Below, piece by piece: positions 8,970 through 61,094 of a DNA stretch of 64,000 bases. The notes beneath the pieces were generated by a model. The model saw only the letters and a program-made list of their open reading frames with translations, did no database searches and was not told the origin of the DNA. Position numbers and translations under genes: made by a program. Positions within the stretch are counted from its first letter, which is position 1, and the number at the start of each line of letters is the position of its first letter. This DNA is from Corallium rubrum (lineage: Eukaryota; Cnidaria; Anthozoa; Scleralcyonacea; Coralliidae), in contig OZ036002.1 of the NCBI GenBank assembly GCA_964035015.1, forward strand, positions 2,348,501-2,412,500. Reading direction: 5' to 3'.

Positions 8970-9299
8970 CTAAATGTTTACTTTTTGGTATTTGAAAGTA
9001 ATAAACGCTCCATGCTTTGGTTTCAACCCATCTACTCCATATTTGGCAGATGAACCATCCACGTAGATCAACCAGTATGTTGAAGCTGATGGTTGCCTCA
9101 CAACACCGCAAATGCTTGTAACTGATCTTCCCCAGGAATATCTTTTATATACAGCTGTGTAGCAAGGGTTTTGTTTTTTAGCCAACTCCAGTATTTCATA
9201 GGTTGTTGTTCCTTCCGGTACTGTAACGGTGACTGGAGGTTCCATCCTCAAGGGATTGATGGTGTCATTGTAAACTAGGTTGACACTGACAGTTATGTT
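8970..9299 (-). CDS. Cobalamin-binding protein gene A, terminal beta-domain exon (DUF4430-like)
   Basis: This last exon encodes about 109 residues ending YQKVNI then TAG. It follows a TTTGTCTTTAAAG acceptor (exon begins 9299, AAC ATA ACT). The pattern is that of the C-terminal beta domain of intrinsic factor/transcobalamin proteins: a strand-rich segment (ITVSVNLVYND), PVTVTVPEGTTTYEILELAK, a small-residue turn, then YWLIYVDGSSAKYGVDGLKP and GAFITFKYQ. In the known family this domain closes over the alpha/alpha barrel to bury cobalamin. The exon is intact. The preceding coding exon found (11832-12015) ends in phase 1 whereas this exon starts in phase 0, so at least one linker exon between them is unidentified. 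Confidence 0.75.
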   Translation of the reverse strand, partial: NITVSVNLVYNDTINPLRMEPPVTVTVPEGTTTYEILELAKKQNPCYTAVYKRYSWGRSVTSICGVVRQPSASTYWLIYVDGSSAKYGVDGLKPKHGAFITFKYQKVNI

Positions 9300-9339
9300 C
9301 TTTAAAGACAAAAGGAGACGTTTATCTTAATAGAACTAT

Positions 9340-11831: not shown

Positions 11832-12015
11832 GAGTAGGTTCAGGACAGGACAAATCTTTCAAAGATGTCATAGCTTCACCCATTAATGAAGGAGTGATTC
11901 GAATATTGGCAAGCACAGTTCCGAATGACGCTGTAGCATCTTGGTAGCTTAAGATATTCCTCATGGCCTTCTCACAGTTCCAACAGGGAGGGTTAATGTT
12001 TGCAGCCCAAAGTGC
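11832..12015 (-). CDS. Cobalamin-binding protein gene A, second alpha-domain exon
   Basis: A 184-nt exon with a TATAG acceptor (exon starts 12015, GCACTTTGG) and a GTAAGT donor (exon ends 11832, phase 1). Its translation starts ALWAANINPPCWNCEKAMRN, continues ILSYQDATASFGTVLANIR and ITPSLMGEAMTSLKDLSC. It aligns residue by residue with gene B exon 3 (ALQAARH...TWHCEKAMRN, ILGYQDEDGSFGNILANVQ, TPSLLGESLISL), with the same start phase and end phase. In the intrinsic factor/transcobalamin family this region forms late helices of the alpha/alpha barrel, including a conserved cysteine. It was too short to stand out as an ORF; homology to gene B and splice sites define it. Confidence 0.85.
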
Positions 12016-16605: not shown

Positions 16606-18528
16606 ATGACTGAATTAGAGGAGCTGTCAGAGTCGTCAAGTTTATCAGAGGACGAAAATTTAGAAGAAGATCCAATTGTGGTAGCAGAAAATGCTGGTGC
16701 AACTTTTAGTACTCCAGCTGGCGCAGCCATTGCACGTAAGCGAAAGCTCCCTACCAACAAAGGGAAGTATAAGCAGAGAGGAAGTAAAACACCAGTTGGT
16801 ACTAGTGCCTGGGATCGTTTGAAAGAGTTCACGAACAATCATTTTGCTGTAGTTTCACAGAAATTGCTGCAACGCTTGCAATGAAATGATTTCTAAGAAG
16901 AAAAGTTCTATCGTAAAGCATGTCGAATCGAAGAAGCACAAGAAAGGCTTGGCTGATATTGCAAAGAACAAAACGGAAAACCAGACGATAATGGCATGTC
17001 TTGAGAGGAGGAAAAATAGAGAGAATACCACTGGGTCGACTTTACCCGCCGAGATGCAGCTTTTCCGCTTTGAAGTCGTCGAATCGTTTCTCTCGAGCGG
17101 AATACCACTGGCGAAAGTAGATGCTCTTCGACCAATGCTAGAGAAGCATGGGCACCGATTAACAAGCCGTTCCCACATGAACGAGCTTATCCCAGCGGTA
17201 CTTGAGAAAGAGAAGAACAAACTTAAGGAAGAACTCCAAGGTGTCAAGGAAGTTTCGGTAATTTTTGATGGTACTGCAAGATTGGGAGAAGCCTTGCTAT
17301 CATTATTCGCTATGTGCAGGACAACTTCAAACCCACTCAGCGCCTCATACGTTTAGAAATACTTGCAAAGGCCATGAAAGGTGAAGAGTTGGCCCAGAGA
17401 TTGATGTCTTGCCTGGCCGTGGTTTACAAGTTCGGCCAGAGCGTAGTCATTGGAGCAATGAGAGATGGCGCGTCTGTCAATGGAGCTGCCTTACGCCAGC
17501 TAAGTTTCTTTTATCCAGAGCTCTTTGATGTTGTGTGTTTCTCTCACACCATTGACAATGTTGGCAACCATTTTGAATTTCAAGTCTTAGATTTGTTTAC
17601 TCGCTATTGGATTGGAATGTTTTCTCACAGTTACAATGCACGCCTTGTTTGGAGAGAGAAAACAGGACAGTCCATTCGAACCTACAGCGAAACACGTTGG
17701 TGGAGCAAGTGGGAAGTTCTCAACCAAGTGCTAATCTATTTTGGTTTCGTCGAGCCCTTTCTTCGGGAGAATGAGGAAATTTGCCCCTCTAATCGCAGGC
17801 ATCTGCTGGAGATACTCGACAATCCTCAGAACCTTCAGGATTTACGCTTGGAGCTAGCTGCGCTTGTTGATGCAGGGGTGCATTTTGTAAATGCCACCTA
17901 CTACTTAGAAGGAGATGGACCGCTCATATTCACCTGTTATGAGCGGCTTTCGGCTGTTTCTCATGCGGTAGCAGTTGATCACTATCCCAATACCTCAGCT
18001 GTTGCCCGGCAAATAGCTGGTGGTGACGCTACACTCTGCAACCAATTAATTTCACAGGAAAAAGCTTGTATCAAGCCTGGCCTCCAGTTCTACCAGCAGA
18101 AATTTAGCGGTCAGTTTCGTGTTATAGTGCGGGCATTCAAAGCTGCACGTCTCTGCTGCCCTGTGCAGGTTCAAAGCCTAGATATCACAGCCGAGTCTCT
18201 GGAAGAATTCAGAAATTTTCCCTTTATCAACGATGACACGAAAATAGCAAATCTGGCAGAAGAGCTTCCCGCATATCTTGCAGCAGCTGATGGTGTCACA
18301 GTCACGTGTGAGGATGACAAGGTTACTTGGTGGGCGGCGCACGCAGATAACCTCCCGCATTGGTCTTCGCTGGTTAAGACACTGTTGTTGATTCAGCCAA
18401 GTTCTGCTTCCGCCGAAAGGGCCTTCAGCATCTTAACTAATGTGTTTAATGCACAACAAGACAGGACCCTTGAAGACTATATTGAAGCTTGCGTTATGCT
18501 CCAATACAATAACGACAAGAGGGTGTAA
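16606..18528 (+). pseudogene. hAT transposase, two frameshifts
   Basis: The reading frame begins MTELEELSESSSLSED and spans about 640 codons in three successive frames: 16606-16865, about 16866-17290 and about 17291-18528. The first shift lies in a BED-type zinc finger: in the next frame CNACNEMISKK, then HVESKKHKKG, restores the C-x2-C...H-x4-H pattern. The second shift lies after VIFDGTARLGEA; the shifted frame continues RYVQDNFKPTQRLIRLEIL. The C-terminus carries the hAT dimerisation motif SSASAERAFSILTNVF. BED finger, central catalytic region and dimerisation domain are the family's normal order and the length is typical. Two frameshifts make it inactive unless they are assembly errors; no splice sites explain them. 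Confidence 0.85.
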
Positions 18529-23325: not shown

Positions 23326-23460
23326 CGAAACTGCCAGCCCAGTCGAATACTGATTTCCAAAAGCTCCTGTGTTTGGGTTTTGACTCGTAATAAAATTCCA
23401 TGCTAACCGCGCCGAGGCTTTTCTAATCTCGTCCGCCACGGACCTTCCCTGACCCGGCAC
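23326..23460 (-). CDS. Cobalamin-binding protein gene A, 3' half of interrupted exon
   Basis: On the minus strand this reads GQGRSVADEIRKASARLAWN, FITSQNPNTGAFGNQYSTGL, AVS, then donor GTAAGA. It matches the end of gene B exon 2 (EVNKAITKIVNHLISKQN, TGAFGNQYSTALAVQ, GTAAGG), with the same phase-0 exit. It begins exactly at the left edge of the 11-kb transposon stack, next to the duplicated CGGCAC. The other half of the same exon is 34483-35066. Joining the halves keeps the frame; total exon length 719 nt against 677 nt in gene B, a difference of 14 codons. Confidence 0.85.
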
Positions 23461-23983
23461 CAGGGGCGGATTTAGACTACGTCAACTAAGTCGCGCGACG
23501 AAGTGAAAATTTGACGTGAATATGTAATTTTTGTTTGTTGCACGTTGTCAAAAATTTACAAATAAAATCCTGCAAATAAAAAATAATTATCTAGTAGGAA
23601 GGAGTATGTTCTATTCTTAAAATACTTATCTACAGAGGCTTCGGTTCAGGCCAGAAAAATTTCCCCGTTGGCGCTTCTCCGTTTTCTTACGCGCGAGGCC
23701 TGATTCTGCAGCTAGGACTGATTTCGAGGGGAAGCAGTGGGATGCACGGGACATAATGGGAGAATCAAGGATCGGGTTCACAGTCATTTCCAGGCCGCAA
23801 ATGCGATGCAGGCTCTCGGTTTGATGAATTTGACGAAGGAAGCAACTTCGTCAAATTTTGACGAAGTTGGTTGGTTTTTCAACGTTCCTGATTGGCTAAT
23901 TTTGCTCTAATTACGACTTACGATTGGTGTAGAGGCTGAAACGTCATTTTGCAGGATACGCGCCTTTTCTGAATAATCAGTAT

Positions 23984-25812
23984 CAGGGGCGGATCTAGAC
24001 CAAAATCTGACTGTAGCAAATTAGTGATGACACCTTTCTAGGGGGGTCCCAGAAACAGCATTTCTTGCATTCTGAGAGTGACTTTATCCGAGTTATCCCT
24101 TTACTTTTTTTACAAATTTTAACCAGTACATAGGACTTAAAAATCTCGAATTTGCAATTTTCTATTGATCAATTAGAATTTTATCTATACTTATTACTGT
24201 AATATATCAAAATAAATTTATACTAGTATTTTTCCATGTTTGCAAGAGGTAAGGGATTTACTAGCCGTGGGCACGAAGTTCCATCAGATAATAAACAAGT
24301 AGGGTAAACAGCAGAACAGCACTTGAGACAGTTCCACCAGTTAATAAATGAGTAAAATAAGCAGCAGCACAGCACTTGAGACAGTTCCACCAGTTAATAA
24401 ACGAGTAAAATAAGCAGCAGAACAGTACTTGTACAGGCAGTTACCATCACCCGAAGTTCTAGAACAAGTATTATAGGATCAAAAAATAATAATTAAAGGA
24501 TTTTTCAATTTAAATGAATTTCTCTAAAGTTTAAATTCAGTTAAGTTATTGAAGTAATTTTGTAAATAATTATCAAAGCATGATAACAGATATTAACACA
24601 CAAATATTCATGAACATCATCGACATGATCATCAAATTCAAAGCTTCAAACAAAATATTATAAATTAAAAATAAAGATTAATCATTATAACTTTAAAGAA
24701 TCTACCTATAATATTATCTTAACATAATTAAAGGCATTAGATAATATAATTATAGGTAGATTCTTTAATCTTTTAGATTTAACCTATACAATAAACTATT
24801 CACAGAGCACATGTGGACTAGCTAGATGAATATATGAAGCGAAAGTAAGACTATTAATTAAATACTAAGAAAAAAATGATACAAAGCAAGACTGAAAAAG
24901 CACTACATCTTATAGTATCTATTAACACTCGACAGTTCACAGTTGCATTTCAAAACATGGCGACTGTACAGCGATATTCTTAAGTTATTCATGACATGAT
25001 GACGCTACTTACTTTACATAACTATCTATTATTCATAAGATATTTTATTGAAATGAATACAAATATATGCTTACCTTACTGGGTAATAGTTAAAACAGCG
25101 TGATTCTTCGCTATTTGGAAATTGGGATCTCGCAAACTGGCATACGCTCAAGGAACGAACACGACCATCAACAGCCTTCTTCCTCTCCATATCGACAATC
25201 CGCGCACATTCATCTCCAAACAAAGATAATTTTTCCCCTTTCCGCAGAAGAAAAGCTCCCATTGAGTATATTCCGCAATTGCTGCAATACGTTTTTGGAA
25301 GCCATCCGATCGTAAAACGATCAAAACTCACAGTGAAACTGAAAGAAATCTCGAGTAGACACAGCGTGCAATGGTCTTACATAAGATTAACCGTAGTACG
25401 AAACAAAAATTATTACATAATAAATATAAATTATGACAGCGCCGAGGGTAGCAAATCGTGGCTCCCCCCTTAAACTGCATTTGATTCCGCTCTTCTGATT
25501 GGCTGGCACCTCCTTCATGGGTGCTCTGTTTCTAAAAATAGCACAGACTGTTGTTATAAATAGATCCAGGGGTGCAAGCGGCAGTTCCCCCCTGATGCAC
25601 TGGCATCGATGGCTTTGGCAGGTCAAACGATACTTCATGTAAACAGAAATATTATGTTTTACAATTTCAAAGGGTGAGAGCTGACTAGATAGGATAGAGG
25701 GCGCATTGAATACAAATTCTGTGGCGAATGACTGATAATAATTCGCATCATTTTTTTGCAAAAATCTGACTGGTGCTATAGCACCTGTTGCATCCCTCTA
25801 GATCCGCCCCTG
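23984..25812. mobile_element. Second CAGGGGCGGATCTAG element, nested
   Basis: Termini CAGGGGCGGATCTAGA and TCTAGATCCGCCCCTG, with inner complement CAAAAATCTGACTG; duplication AGTAT at 23979-23983 and 25813-25817. It inserted exactly at the left boundary of the element starting at 25818. The same terminal family as the outer element. An internal hairpin (AAGAATCTACCTATAAT and complement) is at 24695-24768. A minus-strand open frame at 25331-25071 (CSNCGIYS, then SLFGDECARIVDMERKK) ends at GTAAGG and could be an exon of an element-encoded gene, not recognised. Confidence 0.75.
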
Positions 25813-25899
25813 AGTATCAGGGCGTTTATATAGGGGGCGGTGAAACGGCAATGGGCGCGCTGATCGATGTGTGATGCAGAGGACTGGTAACAAGCCCCC

Positions 25900-28800
25900 T
25901 TGAGTTTAGAAGAGGACGTGATGAAATTGCCGAGTCATACGATATATCAGTGGATTCAGCTACTATATTCTCTGGTGTTACTCCCAAAAATTCGGAGTCG
26001 TTGCTGAAACATGAACAAATATGTTGCTGAAAAATATGAACCGTACCGTTGCTTTCGCAAGAGAAATGACGCAAGAAGTCTTTGGAAATCTTTGTTTGTG
26101 CACGTTATCATTCGGCCATGTTCGATAGAAGACAACATCTTGCATTGAATTTTAGCTGGTAGGTCATCTTTCCAATTGAATTTCAAGAAATAATCAACTC
26201 CAATTTGCATTTTCTCAATGAAACCTAACAAGAAGTCATCTTGGCTATCTGATGACAAAATTACAAGGTGTGGACGACAGTTTATCACATAATGCGCTCG
26301 GCATGCGTCCCAGCAAGTCGTATTTTAATAAATTGATCGGAGAGTAAAATTTGTTTACAGCTTACAGTTATTTTAATCTAATGCTTCAAAAACCCGATGA
26401 AGTTATTGATATAATTACTAAGAATCGTAACATGGCAAAACTATAAGTTTTGTTTACTTCTCTTGCAGCAATTGAGGAACTAAACAGGCAAGAGTTAAAC
26501 CATAAAAATACCTAACATCCGAACGCTATATCTCCAAATAATCAACTCCGATTTTTATGAAAACTTTAAGATATAACCACACTATTATAATCTTCAACAT
26601 ACCTGAATTCCTAGGCGTGGACGACCTGTTAACATGCTCAAATCTTGTAATGAAATTTTCCCTCAATAGAAGTCATCAAAAAATCGAGTCATTATCCATA
26701 ATAACTCCTTTATAGTACAACTTTTTACGCCAAACAAATATTCATACATTAAACGAATAAGTACTTCGTCGGTACATTGCAAAAGGTTCCTCCGAAATTA
26801 CATAGTTAAAGAAAAAACAGCGGGAATATCACAGTGCCCAAAAATCCACTTTTGATCAACTTTTGCTCAGAAGCACGCTCGTGCCAGTCCTTTTGTGCAA
26901 TCACACATCGATCAGCGATATGAACCACAGGGAGCCCAACAGGTGGGAAAATTGTCTTAACTGACCAAAAATCGCGGGCGCATTTGCTCTGTTTCTTTAT
27001 TTTTGTTCGAAATGAGGTTCGTTCAGGTTTGAATGTTTTGTTAGCTGAAATATTTGGTAAGCTGAAGAAGAGAAACCTCGGCGATTTAAAACTGGTTGTG
27101 ATGACTTTCATGTGAGCTATATATTCCTATGATCGGAGTTATGGAAACCTTGGATTATTCGAGGAGAATATGCAACAAACAGGGTTTTTCGTTTCGATGT
27201 CCATTTTGTTTGTGTCGACAAACTGTTTAAACAGAAAAATACTACTAAAAGGTGAGTTGAAGTATCTAGATCATATGTTTATCTTTAAAAATACTGTGTG
27301 AATTGTTAATATTGAAGCCCACTTGAGTTGACGGTGTAAATTTATCGCCTAGTTGCTTAATATCCTAAATACAGTTAAAATCAGTGCTTTTGAACGAGCC
27401 ATAGTTAAAAATTTAGCCCTTTGCCACCCAAATTTTATTCTCTTAAACTATCCATAGTTCTTTGCTCCATCCACTGAAATAAATGACAACGTCCGGAAAA
27501 ATCGAAAACGAACTGAATCTTGTGCCCTTTCGCCTGTCCATAGGAAATTGCGATAACAGTCGGCTTAGGGAATGTGCTTGAATTACCGTATATTGTTTGT
27601 TAATCGTCTAAATGAAACTTTACAACTGCTTACAGGTTCTTGCAGTATGACTAAAACCAGTCTGTTTAAGAATCAACTGCATTTCCGAAGCCTACGCGAA
27701 CTCTAAAGTTTGCTCATTTTCGGTACACAATTTTGACAGCTATAAAAAGCGACGAAAGCCAATAAATTAAAATTTTCGCCTATGCCACCAATTTTTTTGT
27801 CTTTCAAAGTATGCTTTTGATCCTAATTGTTAACATTGTACCAGTTTCTGAGCTTCAAAAAATCGTAAACACTTGAATTTCACGCTTTGAATTTGAGTCA
27901 CTTGAAGCCGCCATTTTGGATTTGGAATATTGAACAGAATAACTGCTACCAAAAATAATATTGCATTGTTATCATGCAAATCTTTGTGTTCTTTTTCTCT
28001 TTTTAGATACTATATTAGCTATATTTATGGCTAAAGAAAAAGTTAAAAGAGTGAAGTGTTTAATATGCTGTATATATTTATATACATGCTTATTTTGAAA
28101 TTGCTAGATTTAAATAGGCTAAGTGTGTTCAAGCAAAGGTTGACCAACAACGTTGAGTGAAGATACTGAAAGGATTCAAGTTTATTTAATTTACATATAT
28201 TCTGCTACATGTACCTATGTTTAAATGTTTATATATAGTCTTATTGCTTATTAATGTTAAAAAAAGTTGGAATGTTACTCATGGGTTGTACTGTAATAGA
28301 CTCTGTTGTAATTTAAATTGGCAGTGATATGAAGATGTGACAATAACTCCTTATTTTTGCTGTGAATTGTTCTTTTCATTTTCTACTGAACCTTTGACAT
28401 AACCACCAAAAAGGCCAAGACACAAGCTAGTTATAAATTGTATTATTGAGTTTATAAAACACGAGCAACTGCCAACTCGTACTTCCCTGAGCTTTTATAT
28501 TATGTGTATTATAACCAAAAACTATTTATTATGGGTTTTTCTCTTTTTTATTGTATGGTAGAACATAGTATGTTTCTTATTCAGTATTTCGTTTTTAATA
28601 AAATATCTAAAAAGAAGTAGAATTACCAAAAAACTCTTCGGATTATTTACAGATTAAAAGCCGCCATATTGCCGTCCCAGTCCCCCGCAAGCTTGTTTAT
28701 ATCACGGTTTTCGCGCATGCTCACACAATTTTCCCACCTGTTAGGGAGCCCATCTTGGCAGAGCGTGGGTACTCTGTGGCACACTCGATCGTGGTGTGTT

Positions 28801-28960
28801 TAGGAAAATAATAAAGGGATGAAACACGAATTCTTCCTTGTTTTGAACATCGTTTTAAGCGGCTATAGGTATTAAAATTGTAAGACAATTGAGCGAAGTA
28901 GTTGTGATAATGATTCATTTATCAAAATATAATCAAAATGAGGCAAAATCTCACCTTTTA
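25900..28960. other. Element interior, no gene recognised
   Basis: Short open frames of at most 110 codons on both strands show no domain I recognise. AGCCCAACAGGTGGGAAAAT (26934-26953) recurs in inverted sense near 28727-28750, which suggests an internal inverted duplication. Confidence 0.45.
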
Positions 28961-29002
28961 GCCGTGATTTTGCAGCTAAATTACATATCGTATTTTCGAG
29001 AG

Positions 29003-29209
29003 ATGTGTTCCGCAAGTAGCTAGGACACTACGTCATCGTTGACACTTCGGATAGCTACGAAATCCCACGATAAGCTTTTCGGATAAAGCGGGAAGTCTCA
29101 GGATTATTGATTTATTGCACATTCATCTGACTCTGAGTTTCAGTAGGTTTCAGTATTCCAACGGTGGCTCCCGACGATACGAGATGTCCTGGCTACTTGC
29201 GGAACACAT
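29003..29209. mobile_element. Short inverted-repeat element
   Basis: ATGTGTTCCGCAAGTAGC at the left pairs with GCTACTTGCGGAACACAT at the right, about 23 bases including TAGGACA/TGTCCTG. 207 bp in total, immediately inside the right terminus of the host element. May be a MITE or part of that terminus. Confidence 0.5.
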
Positions 29210-29889
29210 TCCACGTTGAACGTTTGGTGTTTCATCCCTTATATTTTTTTCTCTCCCTCCCCCCCTTTCCCCCGGTTTTTCCCTCGCTTCCGGTAACCGT
29301 TTTCCGTACTTTTTTAAATCCCCTGCCACAGTCCCCCGCGCTTCTTTCGAGTCCGCCACAGGTGCCCAAGTGCTGCCAAGATGCCCTGTGTATGAACGCG
29401 TTGCACCGCCCCGTATATATATGGGGCGCCAAATGTAAAAAAATGGTTTAGGACAAAAATGTGTTGATTTTACCATTATTTAGCTATATAATACATTATT
29501 GGTAAACAATGTTTCTATCTGAGTTAAACAATCCATAGATTATTTATAAATAATCTATGGATTGTTTACAAACAATTCCTGGATGGTTTAGTGGAAAGGT
29601 ATTATTTATTAAATAATCCAGGGATTGTTTATAAATAATCTAGGGATGGTTTAGTAAACCATGGATTATTTGCTAAATAATCCCTGGATTGTTTATAAAT
29701 AATGTATAGATGGTTTAGTAAACCATAGATTGTCTATTAAACAATCCATAGATTGTTTATAAATAATCCGGAGATTGTTTAATAAACCATGAGTTTTTGT
29801 TAAATAATCTAAGGATTATTTGCTCGCGCCAAATGTAAAAATATGGCCGACGGTCGCCAAATGTAAAAAAAAGCTGGCCAGTTAAAAAG

Positions 29890-30225
29890 AGCCTGGGTAC
29901 AACTGTTTGTGGCCGGGGGAGGACCACTGATAGTGGGGAGGACATACTCTATAAGTCTCTAACGCAAGATTATAGGCGGTTGTCGACCGACTCGACATTT
30001 TTCGTTTGTCTTGGCTAATTAGTTCTACTAGACTTGGCAGTGCTTTCCCCGCACGAGAGGACCCCAATACCTATATAACGTATAAACATGATAAAATCCA
30101 TAATTACACCCCGATTTTACTAATTATTGGTAAATTTGGGTAAGTTTATGTGTCATTTGGGTAGAACATATAATGTAACAAGATATATATGTATAACATA
30201 TAACGTAACATGATATAATGCATAG

Positions 30226-30285
<60 letters not shown>

Positions 30286-31170
30286 AATATACTATTTACA
30301 ATATGAGACAATATGAGTGGCCGTGTTGTATTGGATATCACGGCGAGAGCTTGTCATATCCAATACAACGCGGATACGAATATTGTAAATAGCTTAAAAT
30401 ACTCCGAGTCTTTAATGTAAATATGAGTAATATTTGTTCAGATTAATTCAGAAAAAGCTCAATTTCAATGCTTCAGAGCTTGTATATTTGATACAAACCA
30501 CGCGTGGTTGTATCATTTGATACAACCTCCTTCACGGTCATGATTTCTTTTGTGTTTTCTTCATGAATTATTAATGAAATTGTCCGAATATATCGAAATT
30601 GTGGATCTTGTTCAGCAATTTTATTCGATTTCAAGGCAAGATCAAGAGCGTTTCCGTGACAAAGAAGATGGACTGCTGTTATTAATTCCTGAATCCTGAA
30701 TCTTTGCAGGTTCAAGTTTGCGAGACATTAGTGAGAACCAAAATATTGTTCTTTACTGGCCGCCCGTATATAGCACTTCCATTCGCAAGCTTATTTAATT
30801 TGCGTTGTTTCAGCTGGCCGACACGTCAAAACACTCCCGAGATGGAGAGCTTGCGTGAAGCTTTCACGATTACCACAATAATTAATTAATTCAACGAAAA
30901 ATATCAGAATAAAACTATATTCTATAAACAGGTATATTTACTTGAAATATAATGTGGGCCTTCCTAGGTATTGGGGTCTCTCGTGCGGGGAAAGCACTGC
31001 CAAGTCTAGTAGAACTAATTAGCCAAGACAAACGAAAAATGTCGAGTCGCTCGACATGATCGTGTCGCCTAGTGGAAAACCGGCTATAATCTTGCGTAAG
31101 AGACTTAGAGTTAGTATGTCCTCCCCACTTCAGTGGTCCTCCCCCGGCCACAAACAGTTGTACCCAGGCT
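29890..31170. mobile_element. Inner element 1 of the palindromic stack
   Basis: Arms of about 190 bases: AGCCTGGGTACAACTGTTTG at the left, complement CAAACAGTTGTACCCAGGCT at the right, continuing through GGGGGAGGACCACTGA and GGCAGTGCTTTCCCC. The right arm contains a small insertion relative to the left (TCGACATGATCGTGTCG). The ends adjoin TTAAAAAG/CTTTTTAA, so exact boundaries are ambiguous. Interior holds a (TA)n tract (30231-30282) and a hairpin (GTGTTGTATTGGATATCACG and complement, 30318-30373). Confidence 0.7.
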
Positions 31171-31180
31171 CTTTTTAACT

Positions 31181-32191
31181 AGTCTGCGATAGCAGACTGA
31201 TCTCGGCCGCTCCCTCCCCCCCGGAAGCGGCAGAGAAACAGTCTGCGATCAATCGACACTAATGCCGTACCGTGACGTCATGTATAAATATTTCGGATAT
31301 AAATTAACTGGAGTCTGGAAGAAGTTCTGACCGCGCTACGCGCCGTTTTTTTAACGTTGTTCACTTGTTATCAACAGTGGTTTGAGGACACAAACAATTG
31401 TGATTTGTCACGCAATTTAAATTTTACGTTACCCCATTCATTTGTTTTTGCAACAACCAGTGCACTGTCTACGTTCGTGTAAAGTAAACAAAGTTCGTCT
31501 ACCGTATGTTCCTAATCCTTTGGGCAAATGCGTGTATATTATTCCGAGGTTCTTGATGCTGAAACGATGAAAGTAAGCAGCAGTTGAAAGACTTAATACG
31601 AAAGAAGAAAATCTTTGACCATAGATGTCAGGAGAGCTATTTTAATTAGATGAAATCGTCTTACTGGGACCCGTTATTTTAATAGTTTTCACGCAGCATT
31701 TTTATCAACGTCTATTCAGTGCATGTGAAGTCGTAAACAACTGTCAAAAAAACGGCGCGGCAACTGGAATTAGCAGTATCGAAGTCATTCAAAAGTTTCC
31801 ATTCCAAGTGAGCGTGTGTAAACGAATCGCACGTGTGTCGAAAGTGCCTCGGCAACGGTATGTTTATAATTATAAACTTAAAGGTTTTGTAGATGCTTCC
31901 ACTTGTTCTTGTTTCAAAAAATTTATAGAAAATACCGGTTTAACGTCCTTCACTGCGTTTATAAAAGCTTCGTAAACGTCCATTTCGATACCATTTCGAA
32001 AGCTGTTTATGAAGTTGTCGGCATTAGATTTAGATCAGCTTATACAAAGAAAGTTTAAATCGACCAATCACATGCCGCCCCACGGTTTACTGGGGTGGCT
32101 GTACGGCATTAGTGTCGATTGATCGCAGACTGTTTCTCTGCCGCTTCCGGGGGGGAGGGAGCGGCCGAGATCAGTCTCCTATCGCAGACTA
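31181..32191. mobile_element. Inner element 2, Mutator-like MITE candidate
   Basis: Inverted arms of about 90 bases starting AGTCTGCGATAGCAGACTGA, containing CGGCCGCTCCCTCCCCCCCG and ending CGACACTAATGCCGTAC. A 10-bp direct duplication CTTTTTAACT flanks it (31171-31180, 32192-32201). Nine- to ten-base duplications with long arms are typical of Mutator-like elements; no coding frame is present. Confidence 0.65.
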
Positions 32192-33778
32192 CTTTTTAAC
32201 TGGCCAACTTTTTTTTACATTTGGCGACCGTCGGCCATATTTTTACATTTGGCGCGAGCAAATAATCCTTAGATTATTTAACAAAAACTCATGGTTTATT
32301 AAACAATCTCCGGATTATTTATAAACAATTTATGGATTGTTTAATAGACAATCTATGGTTTACTAAACCATCTATAGATTATTTATAAACAATCCAGGGA
32401 TTATTTAGCAAATAATCCGTGGTTTACTAAACCATCCCTAGATTATTTATAAACAATCCCTGGATTATTTAATAAATAATACCTTTCCACTAAACCATCC
32501 AGGGATTGTTTGTAAACAATCCATAGATTATTTATAAATAATCTATGGATTGTTTAACTCAGATAGAAACATTGTTTACCAATAATGTATTATATAGCTA
32601 AATAATGGTAAAATCAACACATTTTTGTCCTAAACCATTTTTTTACATTTGGCGCCCCATATATATAAGCGCCCTGATCAGTATGGTTAGCGATCGCTTC
32701 TGTGGTTCTACGAGCCATGCGCATATTCTCAGCCATAATATTGCGCCAGAACAAATATAAAAAGTTATATTCCCAACACTCAATAGCAAGGATATCTACA
32801 AGACCTTTATGATGAAATATTCGTGAAACTTTCATCAAGTGCTTTATGCACTGAAGATGACCTTTTACAGAGGATTGAAAAAGATATATATCGAAATATC
32901 AATTGCGAGAATTTTATACAGTGAATCAGTGATGCGCTCTGAGGTCGTCTGAGGTAAGAAACCCTACTATACTGTATGATTTGAATATCATTATAGTCTT
33001 TATGATAATTTATAGATTTAGTCTTGGGCTAGACTTCGCGTTTGCTTGTATTTGATGTATAACATGTTAATGAATTGATGCTTTGCTGGAAATTTGATTT
33101 TGCTTGGAGATTTCATGGTTTTAATATTAATATCAGTAATATGATTAATTTTATCTTTGTGAGAGCGAGACTGTAACTTAGCCAGCCAACCTGGCAGTTA
33201 AAGCACTCTTCTCATACATTGCTAATTTCTGTCCTTTAATTTAATATTAATTATTACAGTATATAATATATATATATATACATGTCATGTACTATATGAA
33301 TAAACTTAATTAGTAAATGATGATTGGTTTCTTCTTTTAATATAAATTTACATGTGTACAGTAGCTATAGTACTAAGTGCTGATATCCACATGAACCAAT
33401 AACTACATGTGCGGTATTACAATTATTATTTACATTTTATTATCTGGCTTAAATACAATGTCTGCTTAATTCTAGTATTCAATGTTTATATACTTTCATA
33501 GTTTATAGAATTGAAATCATATAAACAAGTAATGATTTAGATTAGATGGGGGCTCAAGGGTTAGGATGACTGGGATAATGTCGAGAGTTGAGCTCCTTTA
33601 TGTCCATGTCGCATTATGGTCATAAATAAAGGCATTCCTTAACAAGACATTGTCTGCTTGGGTATAGATGTGTAAAAGGTGAGTATCTGGCACCTGAAAA
33701 CCATGCAGACAGCTCATAGTAACATAGATTGGTAATGGTGGGTAGTGACTTGAATTAGTTGTGGCTTAATTAGGATGA

Positions 33779-33883
33779 AATTTTTTCATGATGTCTTACA
33801 CTGCTAAAGTCAACCGAAAAATTTCGGCTGACTCGAGCGGGCTTTAGGTTGACTTTAGCAGTGTAAGACATCATGAAAAATTT
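33779..33883. mobile_element. Perfect hairpin element, about 105 bp
   Basis: AAATTTTTTCATGATGTCTT and TACACTGCTAAAGTCAACC pair with their complements at 33845-33883 around a GC-richer loop. It lies between two diverged copies of a TTAGGATGACTGGGATRATG segment (about 33561 and 33920). Confidence 0.7.
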
Positions 33884-34482
33884 TCTAATGTTTCTGAGGA
33901 TGATTCTGTAATAGAATTAATTAGGATGACTGGGATGATGTAGATGGTTGAGCTCCTAGAGCTGTCTTTGAAATGTCCCATTACCCTTGCTCTAGCTGGG
34001 TTATGCAGAACATTAAATTCAGCTAGACCTTTATTTGTGTGTTGGTCAGGCTGTCCATGTTGAATTCACTGACTGCAAGAATATGTTTTTGGTGTCTTCA
34101 AGGCATGCTGATGAGCTTTGACATAGAGCAAAACAACCATATATTTTTTAAGTTAGTAATTAAATATAATCACATATCTCTACTGTTTGTTGTATTGCCT
34201 TCTTTTTAGAAAAAAATAATTACGCACTTACTATTACAAGAACTATTACAATAATTCACTAATCCAAATCCAATTTTGACACTTTTTCAAAAAAAGTATA
34301 AAATTATGTGCTAAAAAATATGTTTTAAAACTTCAGAAATTTTGATTAAAAGTGTTGTCAGAATGCGGGAAATACCATTTCAGAGATCCAAATTTCAAAA
34401 ATTTTCAGGGGGGGCATACCCCCGGACCCCCCTAGATAGTCTGACTAAGTGGGGAAAATTCCTAGATCCGCCCCTGCGGCAC

Positions 34483-35066
34483 CCACGGTCTGGTTCCTTT
34501 ATAGTTTCCTTTCTTGACGCAAGACAAAGCCATCAAAATCAAAGCGTCGAAATCGTTTTTGTGGCTGTTAAAATTCGCCTTAGCTCCTTTAAGTAACTCG
34601 CCTACCGACTCCTTGCTTACGCTCACTCCACCGTTGCACAATGCAATGATTGCTAACCCGTACCGAAAATAGTTGTTAAATGTTGTTGAGTTTTTGAATG
34701 TTTTTAAACCAATTTCCAGTGTACTGTACAGGTTATAACCATAGAAATCTTTTGGGTTTTCGCATATTGCGATGACGCCTTGTATGATGAGGGCGAGTTC
34801 GGCTGGAGGTATCTTTTCTAAGTTGCCGTGATCCCTCTTCTGCTCGTCCAGGTAGTTTTTCAATGTTTCTTTGATTGACATCGAGCGGTTGTTTTTGACT
34901 TCAGAAAGCAACACTTCTGCTTCGTGGCCGTATAGTCTCAGAGATACTATTATGGAACTGGCCAGAGATGGAGTCATGAATGAACTGCCGTCTCTGTAAT
35001 AACGTATTAGCCAATCAGAGGACTTGACGACTGCCCTCGTGAGATTAGCGTGCAAAGTCTTGCTTC
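34483..35066 (-). CDS. Cobalamin-binding protein gene A, 5' half of interrupted alpha-domain exon
   Basis: The exon starts after TTCTTTATAG (35067) in phase 1 and reads GSKTLHANLTRAVVKSSDWL, then IRYYRDGSSFMTPSLASSII, SLRLYGHEAEVLLSE, LALIIQGVIAICENPKDFYG, FNNYFRYGLAIIALCNGGVS and ALSCVKKGNYKG. This is the alpha/alpha-barrel N-terminal part of intrinsic factor/transcobalamin proteins, secreted cobalamin carriers, and is alignable throughout with gene B exon 2. At GTGCCG it runs into the transposon edge (34476) and would hit a stop about four codons into the element; the true continuation is at 23460-23326. The signal-peptide exon upstream was not found. Confidence 0.85.
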
Positions 35067-35162
35067 CTATAAAGAATAATATCATTCATGAGTTGTAAAA
35101 TTTTTTGCACACATTTAATCTAAGCCACAGATGAAAAGAAAACCTACAGGCACCACCTTCAA

Positions 35163-51164: not shown

Positions 51165-54100
51165 GGAATAAGTTAAAATTTGATATTTATTCAAACAACA
51201 ACATAAATACCAGATTTGGTATATAAGATACATACATATAACATATAAACTGAACTACGTGCTCAACTACTGTATAGACTTTCAAAACTTGTTAAAACAT
51301 TAAAACAGTATTTAGCTACCAAAGTCATAATTGTTTTGTCTTGCATAGCAATGACATACATAAAAAGGTCTTGGTAGCTAAATTTAGTAAACGAGTTATT
51401 TATTTTACCGAGACTTTCCATAAAATTAACTCTAAGATCGGCGAACTGTGTGTTTCTGCATGACATTAAAAGGTGTTGTTCGTTCCCAATCTCATTTAGA
51501 TCACAATGTTTGCATAATCTTTCACTGTATGAAACATTTCCGTATCGACCAGTTTCAACAGGTAATTTATGAGCTGAAATTCTTAATTTTGTAACCGCTT
51601 GACGATGTTTTCAAAGCCAAAATTTATTTTCAGTTTTTTAAAGACTCTTAATTTGCCATTATTTCCACCTTGTTGAATCTGCTCTTTCCAGTATTCGGTA
51701 TAAAACTCATGTAATTTATTCCTCAAGTAATGGCAAAAATTTCCTTGTTCTTCGGGTGGTATTACAAAATTTTTAAAATTATTAACTTCTATATTACATA
51801 GTTGTAGTAAATATTTTGTGAATAATATTGGTTGTAAATTAGAGTCGATACAGACTCTCGCTGCTTCACCAGCGAGGGTATCTGTAAAAGTTGAGCTTTT
51901 GATGCGAAACCAATATTTTGTTATAAGTGTAGCTATTTGTATAATTAGGGGTGCCCTTCCTAGTTCACCATAGACAGCTAAATTAGTAGATTTTGAGTGC
52001 ACACCCAAGATTCTTTTGCAGAATTTTAGATGTAGTCTTTCTATATCATTTGTTAATTTAAGAATTTTGGTTTTAAACATCGCAAAAGAGTTTATTTTAC
52101 CCAGTAAGTATGGACCCCAAATTTCGCAGCTATACAGTAAAACGGGAACTACAGTTGAAGAGAAAAGTTTTAAAAGTAATTTTATTGGTACATTCTCCAC
52201 GTTTGAAAAACTTTTGAATAAACAATGATAGGCACGTATTGCTTTACCATAAAGTATTTTTTGTGTTCGTTTAAAATTACCGGAAAAGTGAAAAGTAATA
52301 CCAAGGTAACAATATTCATCAACTTGCTCTAGAGCAATATTCCCAAAAGACCAAATTGATGAGAAGTGTGCACGTCTTTGGGTTGGTGTTCCAAACAATA
52401 AAACTTTTGATTTTTTTAAATTAATGTTCAACTTCCATTTCTTGGTGTAAAATTCAAGCTTTGTGAGACAGTTTTGTAAGCCAGACTTGGACTCGGATAG
52501 TAAAACTAAGTCGTCTGCGTAAAGTAAACAATTTAAATCAGTTTCATCAAGTTTTACTGGGGCACACGAGCTGTTAAATAGATTAGGTATATCATTGATA
52601 AACATGTTGAATAAGGTGGGACTTAGATTGCATCCTTGTTTTACCCCAATATGGGACTTAAAGAAAGGAGTACTTCCCTTATCCAATTTTACCGAGCAAT
52701 CAACTGAGGAATACATACTTAGCATTAGACGTATGAAATTCTTACTACAACCATATTGAATAAGTTTGAAGAAAAGTCCTTCTCTCCACACGCTGTCGTA
52801 GGCTTTTTTAAAGTCGATAAAACAGGCAAAAATTGGTTTTCGTTTTGACTTATAAACATCTATTAAAGTTTTAAGAACTAGTAAATGATCTGCTGTTCTG
52901 CAATTTTTCCGAAAACCGATTTGACATTTACTCATAATTTTGCACTCTTCCAGAAATTTAGTTAAACGAGTATTCATAATCAATGTGAAAAATTTTCCTA
53001 GACAGCTGCCTATACAAATTCCTCTATAGTTACTCGGGTCAATTGTACTACCTGATTTATATATTGGGACTATGAAACCCTTTGACCAATGTGATGGAAA
53101 CACACCGTAGGATAGAATAGTATTAAACAATTTTACAAAATAGGATGGTAAAACTTCGACTGCTAACTTAATGATCTCATTGGACAGTGAATCACCGGCA
53201 CTGGCTTTTTTGTTCTTTAATCTCTTTGACAGTTTGCACAATTCTTCAAGTGAGATTGGTTTGTCAAGGGTATCGTTTTTGCAGGCTGCCCAAATATTGA
53301 AATCCTTCACAATTTGAGCTTCGTTGCTTATCTTTTCAGTGTTGAAATTTATCTTGTTCAAATTTCTAAAATAATCAAACCATTCCGATGATGGTATTTC
53401 ATTAGACGTACATGATTTACGTGTTTTTATAGAATTAACTAGCTTCCAGAATCCTTTAGGATTGTTATTGGATAAAATTTCAATTTGATTTAGTATAGAA
53501 TTATGAAATTGTCTTTTTTGTTTCTTAACCATGCGTTTATATTCCTTTCTTTTTGAAAAAAATAGATGACGTAAATAGACATCATTAGGATATTTTGTCA
53601 GTAAACTTCCTAAATTTCTCAAATTCTTTTTAAGAGTATGGCAATTTGTATCATACCATTTTTGTTTCACCTTTGTTTTGTTTTTATTGTTCGTTTTCTT
53701 TTGTTTCTTAGTATATAATACTTTTTGGGATGTATCACATAATATTTTGGAAAAATTAGTTACAAGCATATCAACATCGATTGATTTTTCGCTATATGTA
53801 GGCTGGAGAAACAATGAATCTAATTTATTTTGTACTTCATTCGAGACCATAAATTCTCTCAAACAATCTTTCTGGTTCTCATTCCACACAAAAGACACAG
53901 GATGAGGCATTAATTTTAATGCATCATCTGGAGTTTTGGGGATTTTAATTCTCATCACAAAAGATAAATAGGAATGATGAGAAAATTCAGTGATATCGGC
54001 TACTGTAAGGCTAATAATAGATGAAAGCAGGTCTTGTGAAACAATAACGTAATCAACAACACTTGCTCCATTATAAGTTTGACAAGTGAACTGACCAATG

Positions 54101-55112
54101 AGATCTCCGTTGGTTCTACCATTTAGTGCAACCATACTATTGCCAATACATAAATCAATTAAAGATCGCCCATAAGAATTTACATGACAATCTCTTGAGG
54201 ATCGCTTATCTAATGTGAGTGGGGTATAATTTTCATCCTCAAGAAATGGATCATCAATAAAATCATCTAGGCTACCTATTCTAGCATTGAAATCTCCACA
54301 TAAAATAACCTTACCCAAAACTGAAAATTTATAGATACTATCTTGAAGATTTTCAAAATGATCAATATTAATTCGTGTTTCACGGGAGGAGTTTTGAGGT
54401 GGTATGTAAACAGTACAAATGAAAATATCATGTGTAAGGTTGAAAAACGTTTTATCCAGTTTCCACCATACAAACTCTTCACTACTCTCTTTATCTAAAA
54501 ATTTAATCCCTTTTCTAAGAGATGATCTAATAAGAATTGTAATACCACCAGAACTTCTACGTGATTTTTGAGAAACTTCTTTTCGGCATTTTGAAAACGA
54601 AAAGAAACCATCAATATTAATATTATTGTGACCATAGGGAAGCCAGGTCTCTACTAGTGAGATTAAATCAAAGTTTTGTAATTTTGAAATGAAGTCTGTA
54701 TCATTAAGCTTACTAGACAGACCTTCAATATTCCAACTTGCAAACCGGAGAAAATTTTTTGCCATTAATTGAAGTTTAACTACTAAAGAACTATTTGAGT
54801 AAACTAATTAAACAAGTCTATTATTAAAAAATGAAGGAATTGGTGGATACATTACCCTTTGATAATGCTGCTGCTGATTAATGCTAATATTGTTTTGAAT
54901 CAGTCGATTCAATAAGTCTGATATATTCTTCAGCTGGTCTTGCATCCCAATTATCACAGGTTGAGGTACATTGTTACCGACGGTGCCTCTTGACTGTAAA
55001 TCAGTTGGTTAAATGCGCACTTGCGGAGTAGGCTAAGAGCGAGACACAGAAGGGGGAAAAAAACCCGAGCCGAAACCAAGACTCGACCTACTACAGGTAG
55101 CCCGAGTAATAA
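51165..55112 (-). mobile_element. APE-type LINE, near full length
   Basis: The minus-strand ORF starts ATG at 54765 and runs 1,060 codons to 51583. N-terminal endonuclease: FASWNIEGL, LVETW, ILCGDFNAR, VVDYVIVS and SHHSYLSF (about residues 5-265). Reverse transcriptase: AGDSLSNEIIK, SNYRGICIGSCLGK, FIDFKKAYDSVW, GVKQGCNLSPTLFN and LLYADDLVLL (catalytic YADD about residue 749). A stop follows VKRLQN, but the +1 frame continues as HRQAVTKLRISAHKLPVETG, a Cys/His knuckle (LCKHCDLNEIGNEQHLLMSC) and on to about 51268, the usual C-terminus of such ORFs. One frameshift near 51600 thus truncates it. The 5' UTR extends to about 55112; the 3' boundary is approximate. Clade not assigned. Confidence 0.85.
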
Positions 55113-60417: not shown

Positions 60418-61094
60418 CAAAAGGAAGCTTACACGCTGACCTCACACAGGCAGTAGTGAGATCATCAGATTGGATGCGAACGTTTTACAAGAATAACGAG
60501 ACATTCATTGAACCCTACACGGCCAGCTCAATGATAGAGACTCTACGATTAGCCGGTCATCAGCCACGCTACTTGCTTTCCGAATTCAAGAACAAAGATC
60601 AACTTTCTATTGACGAAACCTTGAAAGACTACCTGGATCGCGAGAATGGTACAAACGGAAACCTGACCAAAATTCCAACCGGACAACTGGCTTACATCGT
60701 ACAAGGTGTTATTGCGATATGCCGGAAGCCCGAAGCCTTCGAGGGGTTTAACTTGTACAATGCCCTTCACGATGGTCTCAAATGGTTCAAGAAAACGCCA
60801 ACTTTTAGTAATTATTTCCAGTATAGTTTAGTCGCCATTGCGTTCTGTACCGGAGGAGTCCAAGTCCCGGAGATCATGGTAAAGGAACTCGTAAAAGCAG
60901 CTCGTCAAAAATACAGTATTCATTCTGTTGACACTAACTCGTTGATACTTATGGCACTGTCCTGCGCGAAGAAGAGCTCGATGTCCAGTGAAGTTAATAA
61001 GGCAATAACTAAAATTGTCAATCATCTTATTTCAAAGCAAAATACAGCCACAGGTGCTTTTGGTAACCAGTATTCCACTGCACTGGCTGTCCAG
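60418..61094 (+). CDS. Cobalamin-binding protein gene B, main alpha-domain exon
   Basis: Starts after CAATTTTAG in phase 1 and ends CAG before GTAAGG (677 nt). It reads KGSLHADLTQAVVRSSDWMR, YTASSMIETLRLAGHQPRYL, LAYIVQGVIAICRKPEAFEG, FSNYFQYSLVAIAFCTGGVQ, LILMALSCAKKSSM and NTATGAFGNQYSTALAVQ. Paired helices with QGVIAIC and GAFGNQYSTALAVQA-type motifs are those of the alpha/alpha barrel of intrinsic factor, transcobalamin and haptocorrin, which bind vitamin B12 for uptake. Any open frame beyond 61094 is intronic repeat, not protein. Paralogue of gene A in the same window; the family is known to have several members in invertebrates. Confidence 0.9.

Follow-up and report, generated by a model that had tools for sequence, protein, structure and literature searches.

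Recent interruption of a transcobalamin-like gene by a nested transposon stack in Corallium rubrum

DNA transposons of the hAT type are characterized by CAGGG ends and target-site duplications of 5-8 bp, a hAT transposase in the autonomous member and a constant 8-bp duplication being criteria of the superfamily. The gene described here resembles, through its two domains, transcobalamin-1, transcobalamin-2 and gastric intrinsic factor, which we take to be vertebrate proteins. Transposons may also give rise to introns. A study of introners (PMC9860276) describes transposon-derived introns which take the donor from the target-site duplication, or both splice sites from the duplication or the neighbouring exon. 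The same study reports introner families with median lengths of 30-654 nt and applies a rule of at least four similar introns of a family per genome. The locus analysed here shares with the introners described there an inverted-repeat DNA transposon with its duplication in a coding exon, and a duplication starting with GT; in contrast to them, the element is far longer and is known here from DNA alone. Among the titles and abstract openings in the literature searched, we found no description of this locus, a statement confined to those texts.

In the window (the whole stretch of 64,000 nucleotides analysed), gene A is a transcobalamin/intrinsic-factor-like gene with exon 2 split by an 11,016-bp insert (Table 1). 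Positions 34462-35085 alone score 52.6 bits against PF01122 (cut-off 25), which the other copies of the gene also match, and positions 8973-9326 score 39.8 bits against the C-terminal DUF4430 family (cut-off 23.8). Exons 2 and 3 of an uninterrupted copy, A', match transcobalamin-1 (4kki, E 9e-17), transcobalamin-2 (4zrp, 1e-8) and gastric intrinsic factor (3kq4, 4e-8). The domains place the product in the cobalamin-binding family, and it is predicted to bind cobalamin. The coral differs from the vertebrate genes in having several probably tandem copies, one of them interrupted by a transposon stack, with the family assigned by sequence. A direct junction of exon 3 with the last exon would be out of phase, so at least one linking exon should lie between them.

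Table 1. Coordinates of the features of gene A, its insert and gene B in the window
Feature	Position	Strand	Details
Gene A exon 2, first part	34477..35066	-	590 nt, PF01122 Cobalamin_bind
Target-site duplication, copy 1	34477..34482		GTGCCG on gene strand
Candidate donor	34481..34482	-	TGG/GTGCCG; GT opens duplication
Whole insert	23461..34476	-	11,016 bp; O with the elements nested in it; ends CAGGGGCGGATCTAGG... / ...CTAAATCCGCCCCTG
Outer element O, left piece	33917..34476	-	560 bp; aligned to five whole O copies
Nested insertion Z	33779..33916		138 bp, hairpin-bearing, 13-bp duplication
Outer element O, middle piece	32677..33778	-	alignment to O copies
Nested element Y	25818..32676		ends CAGGGCG.../...GCGCCCTG; repeated family
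Insertion inside Y	31180..32191		inverted-repeat ends TAGTCTGCGATAG, 9-bp duplication CTTTTTAAC
Nested element X	23984..25812		both ends CAGGGGCGGATCTA, AGTAT duplicated (5 bp); repeated family
Outer element O, right piece	23461..23983	-	523 bp; alignment to O copies
Target-site duplication, copy 2	23455..23460		6 bp
Candidate acceptor	23449..23450	-	GGGTCAG/GGA; first exon base 23448
Gene A exon 2, second part	23326..23454	-	129 nt, then donor GTAAGA
Gene A exon 3	11832..12015	-	open frame with ordinary splice sites; private changes G to A and Q to R
Gene A last exon	8970..9299	-	PF14478 DUF4430, open; stop at 8970-8972; gene's low-coordinate end
Gene B exon 2	60435..61091	+	uninterrupted paralogue, without 14 residues at insertion site

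A first-pass annotation, made from the letters of the window, had proposed this split by a nested stack, and its boundaries hold to the base, flanked by a 6-bp duplication. Its reading of the joined exon as gene B exon 2 plus 14 codons also stands, the 14 residues missing from gene B lying at the insertion site. Four later insertions have brought the outer element, O, to 11 kb. Z is missing from all five O copies fetched whole, and Y is flanked by an 8-bp duplication (ATCAGTAT at 23976-23983 and 32677-32684). X sits in the left duplication of Y and is therefore the later of the two. Reading through from exon 2 into O, the first in-frame stop is met at 34462..34464 on the minus strand (...RPWVPQGRI*).

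The five whole O copies are 2120-2170 bp long with ends matching those of O here, from which they differ pairwise by 1.0-2.4%. O has short terminal inverted repeats of about 15 bp, CAGGGGCGGAT(C/T)TAG at both ends, and a target-site duplication of 6 bp, which is single in the empty sites described below; this combination is that of a cut-and-paste DNA transposon. With its CAGGGGCGGAT...ATCCGCCCCTG ends, target duplication and many similar copies, O resembles non-autonomous hAT-like elements. However, among 13 other O copies the duplication is 5 bp in eight, 8 bp in two and not exact in three, and this variable length (5, 6 and 8 bp) departs from the constant 8 bp of hAT, so that O is a putative hAT element. 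No Pfam family exceeded its cut-off, and hence no transposase was found, in the 8 insert frames scanned out of 37 (stop-to-stop frames of at least 60 aa over the insert, one of them the exon itself). Since no transposase was found in O, it was probably moved by the enzyme of another element.

An empty site, which the first-pass annotation had proposed to seek by long reads from several individuals, occurs twice in the same assembly, exactly as predicted. Uninterrupted copies A' and A'' lie on contig C289, at 26578-27279 and 161728-162429, each with a single GTGCCG, and are 98.2% and 96.8% identical to A over 819 aligned columns (exon and short flanks). A 738-bp exon query is found at four places in the assembly, namely these two sites and the two halves on C18, the scaffold of the window, and a query spanning the filled junction at one. 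The evidence that the other copies are intact covers exons 2 and 3 and the last exon. An ordinary intron in homologues, which the annotation had named as evidence against its reading, was rejected, as exon 2 is uninterrupted at the site in A', A'', B, B' and the C30 paralogue of the same genome (B'', which lies at the end of C289 and has a frameshift and 3 stops, was left out of this comparison).

The first-pass annotation saw tension between the age implied by nested insertions and the open frames of gene A. Our dating removes it. O carries private substitutions in 17 of 2012 columns (about 0.8%), no different (P = 0.62) from the 19 of 1901 on the C18 branch in intron sequence, and only about 0.25 stops are expected in the exon since insertion, with a probability of about 0.78 of no stop. 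The frames would thus still be open because few mutations have accumulated. The suggestion that the stack grew rapidly fits best, and with four later insertions in an element of less than 1% private divergence, nested insertions make a poor clock.

Beyond the insert, private changes in exon 3 and the last exon comprise 5-6 replacements and no silent change, against 2 replacements and 9 silent changes (9/11) in exon 2; the Fisher test gives P = 0.0023 including three codons which differ among all three copies and P = 0.027 without them. The two exon 3 changes hit a G and a Q common to the aligned chains of transcobalamin-1 (4kki) and transcobalamin-2 (4zrp). Judged from these sequence comparisons, exon 3 and the last exon are probably in early decay. 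Some observations count against a pseudogene. In these two exons A' and A'' also show replacement changes, and exon 2, with mostly silent private changes, looks conserved: about 4.7 replacements would be expected under drift since insertion (0.84% over 557 replacement sites), against the 2 observed. However, the 9 silent changes at 160 sites are more than an intron divergence of 1% would give, and the first 77 codons hold 7 of them; because of this excess and clustering, gene conversion may confuse the count.

Could the insertion be an allele, an uninterrupted C289 copy being the other haplotype of the same locus, as one of the three options of the first-pass annotation has it? Uninterrupted copies do exist, and C289, an unplaced contig, is in part collinear with C18, with the exon identity of 98.2% given above. 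However, A, A' and A'' are three distinct sequences, more than two haplotypes of one locus can provide. C18 itself carries, at 2485788 and 73 kb past the window, a gene A-type last exon almost identical to the one in A'; the 3 kb around it differ from the first C289 copy by 4 mismatches and 59 gap positions. For this reason tandem paralogy seems to describe the copies better than allelism does. Over 3 kb, 0-4 mismatches (plus gaps) separate the versions of A' on C18, C230 and C289, whereas A differs from A' in about 1.8% of intron columns. We therefore consider an allele rather unlikely, and the broken gene A is probably one copy of a tandem array, although the array order and the allele-or-paralogue status are insecure, since C289 contains an N gap of 7.5 kb, has a frameshift at its end and is redundant with C18 and C230. 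A query from the middle of C289 matched a dispersed repeat (84 matches) and was uninformative on the placement of the contig. Misassembly, with 23454 and 34477 coming from different loci, might be suspected in a region so repeat-rich and redundantly assembled, and the annotation had flagged it. An error is not expected to yield a perfect 6-bp duplication, exact family termini at both junctions and private changes in both halves; we find it extremely improbable and have rejected it, given the duplication and the existence of empty sites.

It has also to be asked, with the first-pass annotation's option of removal from mRNA, whether the insert is a newborn intron, with donor GT at 34482 and AG before 23448, removal of the stack and four codons leaving gene A functional. 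The annotation had found no frame-keeping splice pair, but an in-frame GT-AG pair (34482/23448) does exist, at the cost of four codons (VPGQ) which fall in the stretch gene B lacks. The candidate acceptor scores 5.8, within the 5.3-6.9 of three real gene A acceptors, whereas the donor reaches 2.2, compared with 7.2 and 5.9 for two real gene A donors (matrices and background were taken from consensus values, untrained on this genome). The mostly silent changes of exon 2 would suit a functional gene, and transposon-derived introns with a donor from the duplication are described in PMC9860276; exon 3 and the last exon, however, look unconstrained. When insertion was simulated at 589 points in exon 2, 9.5% of them yielded a pair at least as strong. 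At other O copies, 0 of 10 exact duplications start with GT in the orientation of O (one, TAAAC, would do so in the opposite orientation), and these duplications give no sign of other O copies forming introns. O, about 2.1 kb and now 11 kb, also far exceeds the family medians given in PMC9860276. Taken together, a newborn intron appears quite improbable. We hold as very improbable that O became a working intron at once and took at least four further elements, reaching 11 kb, with the gene expressed minus four codons.

The interruption looks like ordinary recent gene breakage and poses no puzzle. O inserted into one copy of the gene and received further insertions, and it is likely that this left an early-stage pseudogene whose loss is tolerated. 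O, of about 2.1-2.2 kb and from a young family, entered exon 2, duplicating 6 bp, presumably by cut-and-paste movement, and further elements then landed within it. A transcript would meet a stop four codons into O and so either yield a truncated protein or be subject to mRNA decay. Loss of gene A may have been tolerated because the other copies of exon 2 in the probable array are uninterrupted.

On this reading gene A is a clean, datable case of how a member of such an array may be lost: the assembly holds the filled site as well as empty ones, the element comes from a young family, and the exons downstream carry replacement changes. Only if RNA were to show the stack spliced out would the locus have greater significance, as the gain of an intron and its growth by nested insertion observed while under way.

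Gene A, the minus-strand gene of a cobalamin-binding protein (Cobalamin_bind domain, PF01122), lies within the window, which spans C18:2348501-2412500 of the 474-Mb genome. Removal of the insert from its exon 2 leaves an open frame of 719 nt, and the encoded protein is about 50% identical to that of exon 2 (60435-61091, plus strand) of gene B, the uninterrupted paralogue. Gene B has a 14-residue gap at the position of the insertion. Transcobalamin-1 has residues at this gap, transcobalamin-2 has 6 fewer, and a paralogue on contig C30 aligns with gene B there without a gap, so the difference could be a gain in gene A or a loss in gene B. The phases of exon 3 and the last exon are incompatible at their join, so at least one linking exon must exist beyond the exons located.

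Features of gene A and of its insert (window positions)
Feature	Position	Strand	Remarks
Exon 2, two parts	35066-34477 and 23454-23326	minus	PF01122 gene
Insert between exon 2 parts	23461-34476		GTGCCG (gene strand) on either side
Outer transposon O, pieces	34476-33917, 33778-32677, 23983-23461		from alignment to five complete copies
Nested element Z	33779-33916		138 bp; 13-bp duplication
Nested element Y	25818-32676		duplication ATCAGTAT
Element within Y	31180-32191		duplication CTTTTTAAC
Nested element X	23984-25812		duplication AGTAT
Exon 3	11832-12015		open, ordinary splice sites
Last exon	8970-9299		DUF4430; open, ordinary splice sites

The intron between exons 2 and 3 also holds a hAT transposase frame (PF05699, 37 bits; 17269-18525, plus strand), which belongs to an element separate from the 11-kb insert; the adjoining frame 16853-17353 matched no family over the cut-off. 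Between genes A and B lies a LINE-type element (51586-54807, minus strand) with a 1074-aa open frame containing endonuclease and reverse transcriptase domains.

Searches with the ends of O matched in all scored candidates (left end, 40/40 scored of 2016 at first look; right end, 40/40 scored of 183), so O is a repeated family. Five copies with both ends were retrieved complete for comparison (2120-2170 bp), and these differ by 1.0-2.4% from O in gene A and by 0.2-1.8% among themselves. At 13 other copies the target duplication is 5 bp in eight, 8 bp in two and without an exact form in three. Duplication length within the family (L045-L068) differs between copies (5, 6, 8 bp) despite matching ends. 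No transposase was found in the eight insert frames scanned. The insert outside the O pieces is younger than O; X is younger than Y because it sits within the duplication of Y, and both match repeats at other genome places. Z is short and hairpin-bearing, with a duplication exceeding the usual DNA-transposon length, and may be a retroposed element.

A whole-genome protein search returned eight places. Two are uninterrupted copies on contig C289 (99% and 98%) and another two the halves on C18; three are of gene B type, and the last is the C30 paralogue. The 738-bp exon query found four places, both C289 copies and both C18 halves; a query spanning the filled junction found one. At the DNA level both C289 exons run continuously through the site with a single GTGCCG, which supplies the empty site sought by the first-pass annotation for its exon split by a nested stack; within this single assembly, neither halves from different loci nor a homologue with an ordinary intron at the site was found.

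On C289 gene A copies occupy 14-27 kb and 155-162 kb, with a 7.5-kb N gap somewhere in between. Further gene A-type last exons are present on C18 at 2485788, 73 kb past the window, and on contig C230 at 121449. Over about 3 kb, compared with the first C289 copy (A'), the C18 sequence has 4 mismatches and 59 gap positions and the C230 sequence 0 and 11. Exon 2 of the 2485788 copy was not found on C18 with the 738-bp query, and a 200-N gap lies in its next intron. The A' locus occurs three times in the assembly (C18:2485000-2497376, C289:13257-16216, C230:120661-123661), as an unresolved repeat. Three distinct gene A sequences, two at least partly on C18, favour a tandem array over two alleles, in an assembly too tangled for certainty. 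A gene B copy at the end of C289 (190002-190763) has a frameshift and three stops, although it shares 99% identity with its partner copy over this stretch; it looks like an unpolished contig end. Three DUF4430 places at C18:14387269-14513446 outscore those of the gene A/B cluster, with no PF01122 match listed nearby, and are perhaps a separate protein family sharing the C-terminal domain.

In the six-copy alignment, 17 of the 2012 ungapped columns show a substitution private to O of gene A (1 to 21 for each of the other five). The corresponding 0.8% is rather an upper bound, because some of these may be older than the insertion. Two intron blocks give 19/1901 for the C18 branch, 14 for A' and 54 for A'', another gene A copy; in 2 columns no two of the three sequences agree. 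The insertion is thus neither distinguishably younger nor older than the split from A'. At 0.8%, neutrality predicts about 6 substitutions and 0.25 stops in the exon (P of no stop 0.78, indels left out), so the open halves, which the first-pass annotation set against an age implied by the later insertions, need no special cause.

Read-through from exon 2 into O would add QGRI before a stop at 34464. The screened ranges contain four GT-AG pairs, open and in frame, that would excise the insert at a cost of ≤45 nt, whereas the first-pass annotation had found no frame-keeping pair. The best candidate joins donor TGG/GTGCCG (2.2) to acceptor GGGTCAG/GGA (5.8), with loss of VPGQ. When insertion was simulated at 589 points of this exon, 9.5% of them had an equally good pair and 60% some pair, so the existence of such a pair is weak evidence for splicing. 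Introners, as described in PMC9860276, are able to use splice sites from the duplication or exon; the O copies compared here gave no sign of doing so.

Of the private changes of gene A in exon 2, 9 are silent and 2 replacement, whereas exon 3 and the last exon together have 5-6 replacement changes and none that is silent. Three of these later replacements fall in codons for which no two of the three copies agree; Fisher P is 0.0023 with them and 0.027 without. A' and A'' also have replacement changes in these later exons, which may thus be less constrained in all copies; the two exon 3 changes of gene A are at a G and a Q common to the aligned transcobalamin-1 and -2 chains. With 2 replacements seen against about 4.7 expected (0.84% of 557 sites), exon 2 looks conserved, which counts against an early knock-out. 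Its 9 silent changes exceed the prediction from 1% intron divergence and 7 of them fall within the first 77 codons, which suggests gene conversion among copies. Most likely, the case is an ordinary transposon knock-out, still at an early stage, that hit a single member of a small array of genes.
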